Positions 441 to 59,903 of a stretch of DNA of 64,000 nt are shown in pieces. Numbering within the stretch: position 1 is the stretch's first letter; each line of letters begins with the position of its first letter. Below the pieces are notes generated by a model. It had not been told where the DNA came from. It saw only the letters and a program-made list of their open reading frames with translations, and did no database searches. Made by a program: the position numbers and the translations under genes. The DNA comes from an uncultured Bacteroidota bacterium (lineage in GTDB: Bacteria > Bacteroidota > Bacteroidia > Flavobacteriales > Flavobacteriaceae), in NCBI GenBank assembly GCA_902586435.1, contig CACIHJ010000001.1, positions 62,001-126,000 on the forward strand, in the 5' to 3' direction.

Positions 441-1937
441 ATGAAGAAAATCACTTCTGCTTTAATCTCTGTTTTTGATAAGTCTGGTATCGATCAGATA
501 GTTAAAAAGCTTCATTCATCTCAAGTTAAATTATATTCTACTGGTGGAACTTATGATTATATCAAAAAGCTAAATATTAATGTTACAAAAGTTGAAGATA
601 TAACAACTTATCCTTCAATTTTAAAAGGAAGGGTTAAAACTCTTCATCCAAAAATATTTGGAGGAATCCTAAAAACAGATTCAGAATCAGACAAAAATGA
701 TGCTGATAAATATGATATTCCAGATATAGATCTGGTGATAGTTGACCTATATCCTTTCTCAGATACTGTTAAAAAAACAAATGATGCTGATCAAATAATT
801 GAAAAAATTGATATTGGAGGAATCTCTCTTATTAGAGCAGCAGCAAAAAATTTTAAATCAGTACTATGTATATCATCAAAATTACAATATCAAGATTTAA
901 TGACACTTTTAGATAAAGATTGTAGTTCAAACATTGAGATTCGAAAAGAGTTTGCAAATAAAGCGTTTAATAATACAATGAATTATGATTCTGATATTTT
1001 TAAATATTTCAATCAATCTAACATAAATAAAAAACAGCTTAGATATGGAGAGAATCCTCATCAAGAAGGTTTCTTTATTGGAAACTTAAATAAGATTTTT
1101 AATCAATTAAATGGAAAAGATATTTCATATAATAATCTTTTAGATATTGATTCTGCAATTAATCTAATGAAAGACTTAAATTTTGAAAAAAATGTATTTG
1201 CAATATTAAAGCATAACAATCCATGTGGAGTTGCAATTAGATCAAAATTAGTTGATTCCTATAAAGATTCGCTCTCTAGTGATAATGTCTCTGCTTTTGG
1301 GGGTGTTTTAATCACGAATAGTGAAGTAGATTTTGAAACAGCTAATGAAATAAACAAGTTGTTTTTTGAAATATTAATTGCACCATCATTTGAAAAAGAT
1401 GCATTAGATATATTAAAATCTAAAAAAAATAGAATAATACTAGAGTTGATTAAATACCCAGATAACAAAAAAAATTATAGAAGCTGCCTGGGCGGTGAAT
1501 TAGTACAATCTATTGATAATATAATTGATGTCTCAAAAAACTTTGACATTGTTACTAAAGAATCTCCTGATATTGCAATTATCAATGATCTAGTCTTTGC
1601 CTCAATAATTGCAAAACATACAAAATCAAACTGCATAATTTTAGCGAAAGATTATAAATTAATTGGATCAGGAATGGGTCAAGTATCGAGAATAGATGCT
1701 TTAAACCAAGCTATTGAAAAATCTAAAAATTTTGGTTTTAAATCTGAATTAAGTAGCTGCGTAATGGCAAGTGATGCATTTTTCCCATTTAAAGACTGCG
1801 TAGAGCTAGCAAACCTAAATAAAATTAAAAATATTATCCAACCTGGAGGGTCAATAAGAGATAATGAATCTATAAAGTTTTGTGACAAACACAAAATGAC
1901 AATGGTTTTTACTGGAACTAGACATTTTAGGCATTAA
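441..1937 (+). CDS. purH: Bifunctional AICAR transformylase / IMP cyclohydrolase PurH
   Basis: PurH carries out the last two steps of de novo purine synthesis, formylating AICAR and closing the ring to IMP in the cytosol. The N-terminal MGS-like cyclohydrolase domain shows 'STGGTYDYIK' (about 33-42), 'GRVKTLHPKIFGGIL' (63-77) and 'IDIGGISLIRAAA' (123-135). The transformylase domain has LRYGENPHQ (200-208), the catalytic Lys-His pair in KHNNPCG (257-263), and 'GSGMGQVSR' and 'QPGGSIRD' near the C terminus. At 498 residues it is close to the usual length. No Shine-Dalgarno is visible before the ATG. The mre genes follow after 49 bases, the usual flavobacterial order. purF and purN lie elsewhere in this window. 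Confidence 0.97.
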   Translation: MKKITSALISVFDKSGIDQIVKKLHSSQVKLYSTGGTYDYIKKLNINVTKVEDITTYPSILKGRVKTLHPKIFGGILKTDSESDKNDADKYDIPDIDLVIVDLYPFSDTVKKTNDADQIIEKIDIGGISLIRAAAKNFKSVLCISSKLQYQDLMTLLDKDCSSNIEIRKEFANKAFNNTMNYDSDIFKYFNQSNINKKQLRYGENPHQEGFFIGNLNKIFNQLNGKDISYNNLLDIDSAINLMKDLNFEKNVFAILKHNNPCGVAIRSKLVDSYKDSLSSDNVSAFGGVLITNSEVDFETANEINKLFFEILIAPSFEKDALDILKSKKNRIILELIKYPDNKKNYRSCLGGELVQSIDNIIDVSKNFDIVTKESPDIAIINDLVFASIIAKHTKSNCIILAKDYKLIGSGMGQVSRIDALNQAIEKSKNFGFKSELSSCVMASDAFFPFKDCVELANLNKIKNIIQPGGSIRDNESIKFCDKHKMTMVFTGTRHFRH

Positions 1938-22586: not shown

Positions 22587-22651
22587 ATTAATACTATAAT
22601 TATCAAAATTACTGAAAGATTTGAAGAACACTAGAATTGTTTTAAAATTAA

Positions 22652-22659
22652 TATATTTG
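22652..22659 (+). promoter_or_regulatory. Putative -7 promoter box of tRNA-Phe
   Basis: TATATTTG is a perfect TAnnTTTG match, ending 11 bases before the first base of the tRNA. The same octamer occurs 10 bases before tRNA-Asp. No TTTG -33 element sits at the usual 19-base spacing. Confidence 0.5.
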
Positions 22660-22670
22660 CCAGTGCTTTT

Positions 22671-22743
22671 GGTACCATAGCTCAGTTGGTAGAGCAAAGG
22701 ACTGAAAATCCTTGTGTCCCTGGTTCGATTCCTGGTGGTACCA
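22671..22743 (+). tRNA. tRNA-Phe (anticodon GAA)
   Basis: The 73-base cloverleaf has a 7-bp acceptor stem (GGTACCA / TGGTACC), discriminator A, D-arm 'GCTCAGTTGGTAGAGC', and an anticodon stem AAGGA/TCCTT around loop CTGAAAA (anticodon GAA). The T-loop is TTCGATT, on a stem with a single T-T mismatch at the middle pair. The CCA end is not encoded. A strong hairpin terminator follows directly. Confidence 0.97.
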
Positions 22744-22746
22744 CTA

Positions 22747-22776
22747 AAAAACCTTACATTTTAGTAAGGTTTTTTT
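22747..22776 (+). terminator. Rho-independent terminator after tRNA-Phe
   Basis: The stem ACCTTAC / GTAAGGT, extended by flanking A/T pairs, has a 6-base loop and is followed by a T run. It lies 4 bases past the tRNA and just before the carotenoid gene. Confidence 0.88.
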
Positions 22777-34455: not shown

Positions 34456-34551
34456 ATGAGTAAATCGTTTGTGACTTTTATTGTAATCTTCTCAATAATC
34501 ATAGTTTTAATTTTAATTTTCTATGATTATTTAAAAACCAAAGATGAGTAA
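34456..34551 (+). CDS. Candidate 31-residue single-span membrane peptide upstream of crtI
   Basis: The ATG at 34456 opens 31 codons ending in TAA at 34549-34551. The peptide starts 'MSKSFVTFIVIFSIIIVL', forms one hydrophobic helix (about 5-22), then a charged tail ending 'YLKTKDE'. It overlaps the crtI start by 8 bases (its last codons contain the crtI ATG), the arrangement expected for translational coupling. It fills the space between the divergent lipoprotein gene and crtI. Chance hydrophobic ORFs are frequent in AT-rich DNA, so conservation is needed to confirm it. No known function. Confidence 0.45.
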   Translation: MSKSFVTFIVIFSIIIVLILIFYDYLKTKDE

Positions 34552-40766: not shown

Positions 40767-42587
40767 CTAATAAGCCCTTCCTTTTTTATTCTCCACATAA
40801 TTTATAAATGCTTGATTAACAACCTTATTACCTCCAACTGTTGGGTAATCACCTGTGAAATACCAATCTCCCTTATGATTAGGACAAGACTTATGTAGAT
40901 TCTCTATTTTTTGAAAAATTATTTGGAGTTTGACTTTTGATTCATCCCCTAAAAGCATTTCTGCCATTTTTTTTGAAATTTGTTCAGGGGAAAAAGGCCT
41001 ATAGACATCCTTTACATAATTCTTTTCTATATCACCCCCAACTGATAATGCTTTTAAACAATTCTTATATACTACTTTGATTACTTTATTATACGTCTTT
41101 TTATCTTTATGTAGCTCTAATGCTGCCTTAAATGCAATAAACTTATCTAGTCTGGACATATCTATTCCATAACAATCAGGGTATCTTATTTGAGGTGCAC
41201 TTGAAACAATAACTATCTTTTTTGGGTTAAGTCTAATAAGCATTTTTAATATGCTTTCTCTTAAAGTAGTACCCCTTACAATACTATCATCAATTATGAC
41301 AAGAGTATCTTTATTAGATATAACTCCATAGGTTATATCGTAAACATGTGCTACCAAATCATCTCTTCCTTTGTCTTCAGAAATAAATGTTCTTAATTTT
41401 GCATCTTTAATTGCGATTTTTTCAACTCTTGGATTATGACTTTTAGCTCTAGAAAGCAAGCCATAAAAAGATGTTTCAGCTGTGTTAGGAATAAAAGAGA
41501 AAACGGTATTCTTAAAATCTGATTTAATCGCATCTCTAACCTGGGGAAATAATCTACTCCCTAATTCTTTTCTCTCTCTGTATATATCAGCATCACTTCC
41601 TCTGGAGAAGTATATTCTTTCAAAAGAGCAAGCTTTATTTGGTTGTTGTTTCAATATTTGTTTTAATAAGATCCTTCCTTTTTTATTTATGATCAAAGCA
41701 TTACCCCTAGGTATTTCTTTGATTTTTTGATATGAAACATTAAATACTGTTTGGATTGCAGGTCTTTCAGAAGCAACAACAACAACTTCATCATTTTCCA
41801 TATAAAATGCAGGTCTAATTCCAGATGGATCTCTTAAAATAAATGAGTCTCCATGTCCAAGCATTCCTGCAATTACATAACCTCCATCCCAGTTTTTGGA
41901 TGAATTTTTTAAAATTTTAACAATATTTAGTTTTTCCTCAATTAATGGTGGCATCTCTTCTTTGCTATAGCCACCGTCTTTTAATTTATCATAAATTAGT
42001 GAAACTTCAGAATCTAAAAAATGACCAATTTTTTCCATTATTGTAATTGTATCTGACTGTTCTTTTGGATGTTGACCAAGCCTAACTAAGCTATTAAAGA
42101 GTTCATCATTATTACTCATATTAAAATTGCCAGCAAGAATTAAGTTTCTATGCATCCAGTTATTTTGCCTCATAACAGGCTGAACATAATCGATTGAATT
42201 TTTTCCATATGTCCCATATCTAACATGACCAAGCATAACCTGACCAACATATGGTAATTGTGAATAGAATTTTTTAGAGTTTTTATTTAATGATTTATTA
42301 GAATCAACAAATTGGAATATTTTTTTATTAATTTTTTTAAATACATCATGAATTGCCTGAGAATTATATGATCTTGCTCTATATAGATATTTCTGACCTG
42401 GGTTGAGATCAAATTTTATACTTGCATACCCTGCACCATCCTGACCTCTATTCTTTTGCTTCTCCATCATTAAAAACATCTTATCTACACCATATAGATT
42501 TGACCCATATTTTTTTGTATAATATGATATAGGGCGCTTTAGGTGAATCAGTGCTATTCCGCACTCATGTTTTATATGATCACTCAC
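40767..42587 (-). CDS. purF: Amidophosphoribosyltransferase, long bacteroidotal form
   Basis: The first committed step of de novo purine synthesis: glutamine plus PRPP gives phosphoribosylamine. The N-terminal nucleophile domain has the catalytic Cys9 in 'HECGIALI', implying removal of a short propeptide, with 'EKQKNRGQDGAG' and 'GHVRYGTYG'. The phosphoribosyltransferase domain carries the PRPP loop 'LVIIDDSIVRGTTLRES'. At 606 residues it belongs to the long variant found in flavobacteria (usually near 630), with a C-terminal tail containing 'CPNHKGDWYFTGDYPT'. Standard PurF is about 480-510 residues. It overlaps the PfkB gene by 8 bases. Confidence 0.92.
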   Translation of the reverse strand: MSDHIKHECGIALIHLKRPISYYTKKYGSNLYGVDKMFLMMEKQKNRGQDGAGYASIKFDLNPGQKYLYRARSYNSQAIHDVFKKINKKIFQFVDSNKSLNKNSKKFYSQLPYVGQVMLGHVRYGTYGKNSIDYVQPVMRQNNWMHRNLILAGNFNMSNNDELFNSLVRLGQHPKEQSDTITIMEKIGHFLDSEVSLIYDKLKDGGYSKEEMPPLIEEKLNIVKILKNSSKNWDGGYVIAGMLGHGDSFILRDPSGIRPAFYMENDEVVVVASERPAIQTVFNVSYQKIKEIPRGNALIINKKGRILLKQILKQQPNKACSFERIYFSRGSDADIYRERKELGSRLFPQVRDAIKSDFKNTVFSFIPNTAETSFYGLLSRAKSHNPRVEKIAIKDAKLRTFISEDKGRDDLVAHVYDITYGVISNKDTLVIIDDSIVRGTTLRESILKMLIRLNPKKIVIVSSAPQIRYPDCYGIDMSRLDKFIAFKAALELHKDKKTYNKVIKVVYKNCLKALSVGGDIEKNYVKDVYRPFSPEQISKKMAEMLLGDESKVKLQIIFQKIENLHKSCPNHKGDWYFTGDYPTVGGNKVVNQAFINYVENKKGRAY

Positions 42588-43497
42588 TCTCCTTTTTTAA
42601 TATTTTTATTCTTTCTTCGATTTTATTCTTCGGCAAATTTAATAAGTTTCTAGTTCCTACCATTTCTAAGTTAAATGATGCAATACTAGTCCCAAAATAT
42701 ATTGCAGATTTTAAAGATTCAAAAGAAACCTCATTTATTTCAGATAAGTATCCTGCAATTCCAGCTATGAAGCAATCTCCTGCACCTGTAGGATCAACTA
42801 CTTTATCTATTTTATATGCTGGGGCAAAATATGTTTTTCCTTCGCCAAATAGAACAGCTCCATCTTCACCTTTTTTAATAATAACATATTTAGGGCCCAT
42901 CTTATGAAGAATATTAGCTGCTTTCTCTATGTCTTTTTCACCCGTAATTAATAATGATTCTTCTTCATTTATTGAAATAATGTTGACATTACTAATGACT
43001 TTCTCCAGAGTATCCCAAAATTTTTCAATCCAAAAATTTATAGTATCCAGAATAATTGCTTTTGGTTTATTAGTAATTTGATTCATTGCTAAAAGCTGAA
43101 TTTCTGGATGTAAATTTCCTAATAACATTATATCTGGTTCTCTCTGATCAATTGGAACTAAAGGCTTAAAATCTTCCATTACATTTAATACTGTTTCTAG
43201 AGTTTCCCTTTCATTAAAATTATTCCGATAAACACATCTCCAGTAAAATGTCTTTTTGTTTAAATTAATTTCCAAGCCGTCTAAGTTAACACCACATGAT
43301 TCTAATAATCTTATATCTGATTCTTTAAAATCATTTCCAACTACAGACACAATTCCAGAAAATAGATTGAAGTGCTTAATAGATAAGCAAATATAGGTGC
43401 CTGCTCCACCTAATTCTCGATCTACTTTTATTTCTCCAGTATCAATGCCATCATAAGCAAGACTAGCTACTATTAGCAACTTATTATTCTTGTTCAT
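42580..43497 (-). CDS. PfkB-family carbohydrate/nucleoside kinase
   Basis: A 305-residue ribokinase-fold kinase. The N-terminal 'ELGGAGTYICLSIKHF' is the substrate-side glycine motif and 'VDPTGAGDCFIAGIAGYL' is the PfkB signature 2 with the catalytic Asp. The substrate is not defined by sequence; its fixed position between rnhA and purF suggests a link to nucleoside or ribose metabolism (inference). It shares one base with rnhA and overlaps purF by 8 bases. Confidence 0.87.
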   Translation of the reverse strand: MNKNNKLLIVASLAYDGIDTGEIKVDRELGGAGTYICLSIKHFNLFSGIVSVVGNDFKESDIRLLESCGVNLDGLEINLNKKTFYWRCVYRNNFNERETLETVLNVMEDFKPLVPIDQREPDIMLLGNLHPEIQLLAMNQITNKPKAIILDTINFWIEKFWDTLEKVISNVNIISINEEESLLITGEKDIEKAANILHKMGPKYVIIKKGEDGAVLFGEGKTYFAPAYKIDKVVDPTGAGDCFIAGIAGYLSEINEVSFESLKSAIYFGTSIASFNLEMVGTRNLLNLPKNKIEERIKILKKESE

Positions 43498-43973
43498 TAT
43501 AACCCTTTTATATTTTTTTCATAATATGTATCACTAATAAGATTAGAGCTTTTTGCTGAATTATTAGCGATATAATCACACCTTTCATTTTCAGGGTGAT
43601 TGTTATGTCCTTTAATCCATGTAAAAGTTACATTATGTTTTCTATATATCATCAAGAATCTTTTCCACAAATCAGGATTCTTTTTCTTCTTAAAATTTAT
43701 TTTTTCCCATTCAAAAACCCATTTTTTATCAACAGCATCTGATACGTATTTTGAATCAGTAAATACTTCAACATTACAGTTTTTAATTTTTATACTTTCA
43801 AGTGCAACGATAACTGCTAGAAGTTCCATTCTATTATTTGTAGTTAATTTAAACCCTTTACTAAATTCTTTTTTGTATTCCCCATTATCTGAAATCATAA
43901 TTATACCATACCCGCCAGGTCCAGGATTACCAATTGATGATCCATCTGTATATATGTTAATTTTTTTTGTCAT
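43497..43973 (-). CDS. rnhA: Ribonuclease HI
   Basis: Cleaves RNA in RNA-DNA hybrids during replication and R-loop removal. The catalytic Asp/Glu/Asp set is visible: 'NIYTDGSSIGNPGPGGYG' (Asp10), 'TNNRMELLAV' and 'EVFTDSKYVSDAV'. 'WIKGHNNHPENERCDYIA' supplies the late His and Asp. The 158-residue protein is the single-domain form. It starts directly at the purN stop and overlaps the PfkB gene by one base. Confidence 0.95.
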   Translation of the reverse strand: MTKKINIYTDGSSIGNPGPGGYGIIMISDNGEYKKEFSKGFKLTTNNRMELLAVIVALESIKIKNCNVEVFTDSKYVSDAVDKKWVFEWEKINFKKKKNPDLWKRFLMIYRKHNVTFTWIKGHNNHPENERCDYIANNSAKSSNLISDTYYEKNIKGL

Positions 43974-44536
43974 TTAAATATCTAGCAACGATGCAATTAT
44001 TTTAGGATAATATTCATATTCTAAATTATGAACTTTTTTTTCAATTAAAGATGCATTATCCCCTTTATTAACAGTTATTTTTTTTTGAAAAATAATTTCA
44101 CCTGAATCATATTCCTGTGAAACAAAATGAATAGTAATTCCTGTTTCTTTATCATTAGAATCTATAACCTTTTTATGAATATGCATTCCATACATCCCCT
44201 TACCTCCATATTTTGGAAGAAGAGATGGGTGGATATTAATAATCTTTTTTGAAAAAAAGTTAATATACTTTAGTGAGATTTTTTTAAAAAGCCTGCTAAT
44301 ACAATTAAATCTGGATTAATTTTTTTAATTTTTTCAAAGACTTGATTATCAAAATCTCTTAGATTAAAAAATTCGGTGGGGGCATCATATTTTTTTATAT
44401 TTTCAAAAATAGGAGAATTTTTATTGTTACTTAGTATGAGACTGACTTCTACTGAATTATTATTTTGAAAATAATTTGTAATGTTTATAGCATTAGTTCC
44501 TTTACCTGAAATTAAAAGAATAATTTTCTTTTTCAT
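43974..44536 (-). pseudogene. purN: Phosphoribosylglycinamide formyltransferase PurN, interrupted by a -1 frameshift
   Basis: PurN transfers a formyl group to GAR in purine synthesis. The first frame (44536 to 44270) encodes 88 residues, from 'KKIILLISGKGTNA' to 'DLIVLAGFLKKSH' and a stop. A shift of -1 at the A7 run (44279-44285 region, minus strand T5A7) restores the frame: 'IINIHPSLLPKYGGKG' with the catalytic Asn and His, then 'HIHKKVI', 'FVSQEYDSGEI' and the C terminus at 43974. The joined product would be 187 residues, the normal length. Everything else is intact, so this is a very recent mutation, a sequencing indel in a homopolymer, or a gene rescued by slippage. Operon order purN-rnhA-PfkB-purF is conserved. 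Confidence 0.88.
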
Positions 44537-58034: not shown

Positions 58035-58900
58035 TATGCTCTTAATTTGAAATATCCTAAAAGTTTTTTAACATAGCTCTCATCAACACGACAATCTATT
58101 ACTCCTGCTCCGTTTTTTTTAAATAAACTGTGAAAATGTTTAATATTTCTTTTATAATTACTCTTATAATTCTCCCTTACTCTTCTGGAATTAGTGTCAA
58201 TCCATTCAAGTTGACCTGATTCCGCATCAACTATTGGAACTATTCCTATTTTTGGGATTTCAGTTTCTTTTATATCATAAACTCTAATACCCGTAAGATC
58301 AAATTTCTTGGATGCAAGTTTTAGAGACTTATCATATTTTTCATCAATAAAATCAGAAAGCATGAAGACAATTGCTTTTTTTTGAATTACGTTTAATAAA
58401 AACCTTAAAGATGAGTCAATATTAGTCTTTATACTATTGGGAGTAAATTCGATTAGCTCTCTAATAATTCTGAGAATATGTGATTTACCTTTATTTGGTG
58501 GAACAAATAGTTCAACTTTATCAGAGAATAATATTGCTCCAACTTTATCATTATTTTTTAAAGCAGAAAAAGCTAGTGTTGCAGCTATTTCAGTTATTAT
58601 TTCTTTTTTTAATTTATTCTTTGTTGCAAATAATTCAGAACCACTGACATCAACTAGGAGCATTACCGTTAATTCTCTCTCTTCTTCAAAAATTTTTATA
58701 AATGGCGAATTGTATCTTGCTGTAACATTCCAATCTATCGATCTAATATCATCTCCAAATTCATACTTTCTAACTTCACTAAAGGTCATACCTCTTCCTT
58801 TGAAGGTACTTAAATACTCCCCGCCAAAAAGGTTGTCGCTTAAGCGCCTACTCTTGATTTCAATTTTCCTTACTTTCTTAAGTAGTTCTTTTGTATCCAT
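58034..58900 (-). CDS. DUF58 domain protein (MoxR partner)
   Basis: A 288-residue soluble protein has the DUF58 signature 'EVRKYEFGDDIRSIDWNVTAR' spread over about 43-63, followed by a VWA-like region with 'VDVSGSELFATKN' and 'FMLSDFIDE'. DUF58 proteins are adaptors or substrates of MoxR AAA+ ATPases. It abuts the next gene (one shared base) and starts 7 bases after the moxR stop. Confidence 0.93.
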   Translation of the reverse strand: MDTKELLKKVRKIEIKSRRLSDNLFGGEYLSTFKGRGMTFSEVRKYEFGDDIRSIDWNVTARYNSPFIKIFEEERELTVMLLVDVSGSELFATKNKLKKEIITEIAATLAFSALKNNDKVGAILFSDKVELFVPPNKGKSHILRIIRELIEFTPNSIKTNIDSSLRFLLNVIQKKAIVFMLSDFIDEKYDKSLKLASKKFDLTGIRVYDIKETEIPKIGIVPIVDAESGQLEWIDTNSRRVRENYKSNYKRNIKHFHSLFKKNGAGVIDCRVDESYVKKLLGYFKLRA

Positions 58901-58907
58901 AATTCTA

Positions 58908-59903
58908 TTATGGGACCTCTATAGTATTTATAATCTTTGTTATTAAATCTTCAGTAGAAACATTTTCTGCCTCAGCTTCATAAGTTAGCCCTATTCTATG
59001 TCTAAGAACATCATGAACAACTTCTCTAACATCTTCTGGTATAACATATCCTCGATGTTTAATAAATGCATAGCATTTTGAAGCAAGAGCCAAATTTATA
59101 CTACCTCTCGGAGATGCACCAAATGAAATTAATGGTGATATATCATCAAGTTTATATTTATCAGGATATCTAGTACAAAAGATTAAATCTAGTATATACT
59201 TTTCAATCTTTTCATCCATATAGACTTCTTGAATAGCTTCTTGTGCAGTTAATATTTGCTTTGTGGAGACTACGGGTTTTATCTTATCCACAGATTTATT
59301 AAGGTTTAAATTAATTATTTTCTGTTCCTCATCAATTTCTGGATAGTCTACAACAACCTTAAGCATAAATCGGTCTATTTGAGCCTCTGGTAAAGGGTAT
59401 GTGCCTTCTTGTTCTACAGGGTTTTGAGTAGCCATAACTAAGAAAGGATCAGAGAGTTTAAAAGTCTTATCACCAATAGTAACTTGCTTCTCCTGCATAG
59501 CCTCAAGAAGAGCAGATTGAACTTTTGCTGGAGCTCTATTAATTTCATCTGATAAAACAAAATTTGCAAAAACAGGACCCTTTTTTATAGAAAAGTCTCC
59601 CTCTTTCATATTATATATCATTGTTCCAATTACATCTGCAGGCAAAAGATCAGGGGTGAACTGAATACGATGGAAAGTTCCTTTTACAGCATCACTAAGG
59701 CTATTTATAGCTAAGGTCTTGGCTAAACCTGGAACTCCTTCCAATAAAACGTGTCCTTTCCCTAATAGTCCTATTAAAAGCCTTTCAATCATTTTCTTTT
59801 GACCAATAATTTTTTTATTAATCTCCATTGTAAGAAGATCAATAAAAGCACTCTCCTTCTTTATTTTTTCATCTTTTTTACTTAAATCTATTTTGTCTTT
59901 CAT
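58908..59903 (-). CDS. moxR: MoxR-family AAA+ ATPase
   Basis: A cytosolic chaperone-like ATPase that heads the Bat operon and presumably remodels the VWA proteins encoded downstream. Walker A 'LEGVPGLAKT', Walker B region 'LSDEINRAPAKVQSALLEA', 'EQVTIGDKTF'-type sensor segment, 'MATQNPVEQEGTYPLPEAQ' and 'SFGASPRGSINLALASKCYA' are diagnostic; 331 residues is normal. The 96-base gap to hflX holds a promoter-like TTG-N19-TATTTTTT. Confidence 0.95.
   Translation of the reverse strand: MKDKIDLSKKDEKIKKESAFIDLLTMEINKKIIGQKKMIERLLIGLLGKGHVLLEGVPGLAKTLAINSLSDAVKGTFHRIQFTPDLLPADVIGTMIYNMKEGDFSIKKGPVFANFVLSDEINRAPAKVQSALLEAMQEKQVTIGDKTFKLSDPFLVMATQNPVEQEGTYPLPEAQIDRFMLKVVVDYPEIDEEQKIINLNLNKSVDKIKPVVSTKQILTAQEAIQEVYMDEKIEKYILDLIFCTRYPDKYKLDDISPLISFGASPRGSINLALASKCYAFIKHRGYVIPEDVREVVHDVLRHRIGLTYEAEAENVSTEDLITKIINTIEVP

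Follow-up and report, generated by a model that had tools for sequence, protein, structure and literature searches.

The purN gene on this contig is read in two frames that join at a run of adenines, and the question is whether the break belongs to the organism, as a gene lost or somehow rescued, or to the sequence assembled from it. The window analyzed here is the whole stretch of 64,000 nucleotides (C1:62001-126000) from a genome of 1.02 Mb in 24 contigs that is 84% complete and whose same-genus relatives are read as small marine Flavobacteriales. The break is real in the assembled sequence and is ordinary in kind. How it arose is weighed below with degrees of confidence that express our judgement. 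An unprogrammed contraction from A8 to A7 is the account adopted, with a consensus error or a minority allele somewhat more likely than a fixed mutation.

On the minus strand (window 44536-43974), the two frames of purN join, and overlap, within a T5A7 run (Table 1). The zero frame (44536-44270, 88 aa) ends as ...GGC TTT TTA AAA AAA TCT CAC TAA, and the -1 frame continues as ...KISLKYINFFSKKIINIHPSLLPKYGGKG... to a stop at 43974, directly before rnhA. The first-pass annotation had described a gene split by one -1 shift exactly at this run, and the two frames and their coordinates confirm it. Reading through the junction gives the normal 187-residue enzyme that it had proposed, the zero-frame stop follows shortly after the A run as stated, and the heptamers T_TTA_AAA and A_AAA_AAA both lie at the run in phase. 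Apart from the shift at the A run, purN carries no further lesions.

Table 1. Features of the split purN gene, its neighbors and other purine-synthesis genes, in window coordinates.
Feature	Position	Strand	Remarks
purN 5′ part, zero frame	44282..44536	-	85 codons before the junction; PF00551 1-90, E 7.3e-8
T5A7 run, frame change -1	44279..44290	-	T5A8 in the closest relative, L005
Zero-frame TAA stop, met owing to the shift	44270..44272	-	
purN 3′ part, -1 frame	43974..44288	-	104 codons plus stop; PF00551 92-180, E 1.3e-25
rnhA (ribonuclease HI), open, downstream neighbor	43497..43973	-	NF001236, 172 bits, over the cut-off of 160
PfkB-family kinase, open	42580..43497	-	PF00294, E 2.3e-31
purF-like amidophosphoribosyltransferase, 606 aa, open	40767..42587	-	TIGR01134, E 2.7e-38, 132.5 bits, below the cut-off of 350
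purH, 498 aa, open	441..1937	+	TIGR00355, 482.7 bits, below the cut-off of 528

The identity of the interrupted gene is clear from both of its parts. PF00551 (Formyl_trans_N, 181 positions) matches the two halves consecutively, so that little is lost except phase. The joined 187 aa align with positions 1-185 of the 192 in TIGR00639 (PurN; E 2e-40), which is still the best NCBIfam match even though the score of 138.4 bits misses the curated cut-off of 150.1, and they also align with solved PurN structures, of which 3tqr is the best (E 2e-30). The stretch NIHPSLLP, aligned with the PurN chains 3tqr and 1c3e, is present solely in the -1 frame; we take it to be an active-site stretch of PurN with a catalytic role. 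Since it lies past the junction, the 88-aa product alone would presumably be inactive as an enzyme. In the second frame the first start listed, an ATG at 44195, is downstream of this stretch, so an independently started second half would also be without it.

Sixty relatives were searched for purN, 24 of them from the same genus. In 19 of these 24 genomes a match of more than 215 bits was found, each without stops; the other five (57-81% complete) gave either no match (two) or a weaker one of paralogue length (three, 42-51 bits). The alignment comprises the 29 loci that were given (19 same-genus, 10 further), the other genomes with a match having no locus listed, and a stop within the match occurred in none of the 29. 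All 19 same-genus genes encode Leu-(Lys/Arg/Ile)-Lys-Ile at the site, always in frame, and none shares the interruption. The first-pass annotation had said that relatives with A8 and no slippery conservation would refute its reading, and relatives with A8 and an unconserved interruption are largely what was found: the A run at the aligned codons is 8 long in 11 genes, with shorter in-frame runs (7 in four, 6 in two and 5 in two) in the remaining eight. In the closest relative, L005 (76% identity), the site reads GGG TTT TTA AAA AAA ATC (T5A8) where the window has GGC TTT TTA AAA AAA TCT, and the simplest history would be that an A8 run was shortened by a single A. Measured against L005, the N-terminal half of purN has a dN of 0.16 and a dS of 0.55 (ratio 0.29) and the C-terminal half a dN of 0.12 and a dS of 0.63 (ratio 0.18), and the gene therefore looks as constrained after the shift as before it. 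Low dN/dS in both halves implies a change that is recent, unreal or bypassed, among which these ratios do not choose because nearly all of the divergence is probably older than the lesion.

We hold, with slightly better than even confidence, that the purN run records a consensus error or a minority allele. The ancestral gene would have carried an in-frame A run, as in the TTT TTA AAA AAA ATC of the nearest relative, and the assembled sequence is one A short (A8 to A7), which places the rest of purN in the -1 frame. The missing base may have dropped out of the consensus by a homopolymer error, or a minority allele may have been chosen in metagenome assembly; in either case most living cells would have an intact purN. 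The uninterrupted genes in 19 of 19 same-genus matches, the lack of a backup enzyme over cut-off (discussed below), the constraint after the shift and the occurrence of a single lesion are all consistent with such an origin. Homopolymer indel errors occur in assembled genomes, and the purN case resembles them in being one base short, in one genome and in a housekeeping gene. It differs from them in that the contig has no general excess of such errors. The otherwise clean contig counts against an error, and one recent mutation would account for the sequence equally well.

How clean the contig is was judged by a survey of frameshifts in which frames are open frames that match a relative's open frame. 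A first survey, with G018 and G007 as references, yielded three rows that fall at two places, purN being one. Broken genes proved to be frequent in G018, and the survey was redone with three further relatives added, so that open frames from stretches of five same-genus genomes were compared with 241 kb of C1 (the window and its flanks, 2 kb overlap). It returned five candidate frameshift places in 211 homology-supported frames; these frames include both purN parts, some antisense frames and genes truncated where a stretch ends, which makes 211, like the 190 used for the motif counts below, a rough gene count. Four of the five places were rejected: 22638-22748 covers a tRNA-Phe gene and then an open frame, two overlapping candidates at 58386-59187 run antisense to a pair of open genes, and the candidate at 34484-34413 lies on the strand opposite a small ORF. 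That small ORF, at window 34456-34551 (+), encodes 31 aa of membrane-like sequence (MSKSFVTFIVIFSIIIVLILIFYDYLKTKDE), is under the usual gene-length limits and has a similar counterpart on the minus strand of L099 in the same-genus G018 (MSKSFVVFIVILSMIVVLGAIFYDYMTSKND).

We judged purN to be the sole true frameshift among the five places. With the first-survey references only, 87 of 127 simulated one-base losses were recovered, against 60 of 73 in the middle 60% of genes, which means that lesions near gene ends are often missed. The same survey gave two candidate places in 142 frames of G010, three in 138 of G017 and one in 117 of G022; these are raw candidates, among which neighboring rows may be one lesion. 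The window contig is of good quality, and purN stands alone as a lesion within the reach of the survey. One frameshift judged true in 211 frames, despite 286 A/T runs of at least 7 in the 190 frames, speaks against a general homopolymer error. The stretches of G018 (L089-L108, G018:C1:426001-826000) had 50 raw candidate places in 238 frames, though neighboring rows may be one lesion, and these candidates include rnhA, a pfkB-type gene and purF, which neighbor an uninterrupted purN. G018 is probably error-rich, and gene loss should therefore not be inferred from it.

A serious but less probable account is that the run truly lost one base to replication slippage in recent time, which knocked out purN in an organism that takes up purines from its surroundings, or in a short-lived variant. 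Runs of A are natural hot spots for such events, and with 58 A8 and 13 T8 runs in the 190 frames one slip is unsurprising. The otherwise clean contig also favors a true mutation, as do the five same-genus genomes that gave no purN, though these are incomplete. Against a knock-out stand the constraint that both halves of purN still appear to be under and the state of the remainder of the purine pathway as far as it was searched, which is open. The purN step belongs to this pathway. The purF and purH genes, reported as intact by the first-pass annotation, are indeed open (Table 1), as are purD (444 bits, over the cut-off of 288), a PurM-type protein (104 bits for purM, below the curated cut-off of 236) and a PurK-like protein. 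That purM, purF and purH fall under their curated cut-offs may reflect divergent members of these families.

The search for a purT or a second purN that the first-pass annotation had proposed gave neither over cut-off in the 84%-complete genome. No TIGR00639 match reached the cut-off, the split purN parts themselves scoring 86 and 41.6 bits, and the best purT match had 106 bits, far below the cut-off of 502, in a 388-aa protein that resembles PurK. Two other formyltransferase matches were also set aside as backups. One is a 316-aa protein on C7 that was read as Fmt-like; the other, of 269 aa, lies on C1 beside sugar-pathway-like genes and was read as sugar-type. A purT or a second purN may lie in the missing 16% of the genome. 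With no backup over cut-off, and with purD, purF, purH and the PurM-type and PurK-like genes open, a loss of purN should cost purine synthesis. Of the causes offered by the first-pass annotation, homopolymer error and fresh mutation both fit the data, and its emphasis on the slippery site does not.

How common the slippery motifs are was counted over 190 homology-supported frames on this contig (62,540 codons, GC 30%, both purN parts included). A_AAA_AAA is found in phase 101 times, spread over 67 of these frames, and T_TTA_AAA 105 times, over 76, and of the A/T runs 79 reach a length of at least 8. Both heptamers are also found in the uninterrupted purN of L005. As they occur in more than a third of the frames and in an intact relative, the apparent slipperiness comes from the lysine codons of this genome, and the purN run is the spelling of Leu-Lys-Lys-Ile in an A+T-rich genome. 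The one 74-nt stretch of RNA downstream of the run that was folded has a z of -0.33 and is matched by 65 of 200 shuffles. Together with the unshared interruption, these results leave the weight placed on the slippery site unsupported.

It is unlikely, in our judgement, that A7 is real and fixed and that PurN is made by RNA polymerase adding an A or by ribosomes slipping -1 on A_AAA_AAA. The run is suited to slippage, and the low dN/dS in both halves counts in favor; published work on such rescue points in both directions. Interruption in none of the 19 same-genus genes gives no sign of long maintenance, the downstream fold adds nothing in its favor, and no rescue is shown by anything in the sequence. 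Original reports of poly(A) frameshifted genes in Blochmannia and Buchnera are said to have appeared in PNAS in 2008 and in MBE in 2010. PMC3017870 proposes that transcriptional slippage corrects the frame in eight genes of Blochmannia vafer, and it cites demonstrations of such slippage in other Blochmannia and Buchnera genes. The likeness to purN is a small A+T-rich genome with a single indel in an A run of an otherwise intact gene. The differences from these cases are that the purN run is only A7, below the tracts of at least 9 counted and the 11-A tract named there (PMC3017870), that the lesion is unshared in the genus and that 241 kb hold one such gene. Blochmannia and Buchnera are also host-bound symbionts, whereas the purN lineage is suggested to be marine plankton.

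A laboratory precedent is given in PMC3812077, where the 8A repeat of M.HaeIII lost one A during drift in E. coli and the lesion was bypassed at basal expression. Both cases concern an A8 that is short of one A, although the M.HaeIII construct was made in the laboratory and its activity was measured, whereas purN is known here from sequence. It would take a still less probable combination for a streamlined free-living marine flavobacterium to have its sole PurN fixed in frameshifted form while slippage at A7 still supplies enough of the enzyme, an extension of the endosymbiont type of rescue to bacteria of the open ocean. Should A7 nevertheless prove fixed, purN would offer a clean way of testing slippage rescue in a lineage that is free-living.

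Programmed -1 frameshifting of the dnaX and insertion-sequence type uses heptamers of the A_AAA_AAA kind. A programmed -1 shift conserved for regulation, for which the two in-phase heptamers and the close zero-frame stop might argue, is hardly credible in purN and was rejected on conservation (an interruption in none of the 19 genes), motif background and the one RNA fold, and the 88-aa zero-frame product would be without NIHPSLLP. The likeness to the dnaX and insertion-sequence type (reviewed in PMC5009743) is confined to the heptamer; the purN interruption is unconserved, the 74 nt folded downstream of it show no structure above shuffles, and one full-length enzyme is wanted from it, not two products.

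The purN case is mostly of little consequence, as one-off indels in homopolymers are to be expected when A+T-rich genomes are recovered from metagenomes. It does caution that in genomes of this sort slippery heptamers belong to the background and that one frameshift is insufficient to call a metabolic loss. A pattern scan of the viral_contigs set, which may omit near-identical records, gave no second copy of the purN site. Elsewhere on C1, outside the window, T5A7 runs occur at L079:14760 (+) and L082:10401 (+), where no same-strand ORF exceeds 60 aa, and at L084:5677 (-), which falls within a 495-aa frame that is open on that strand.
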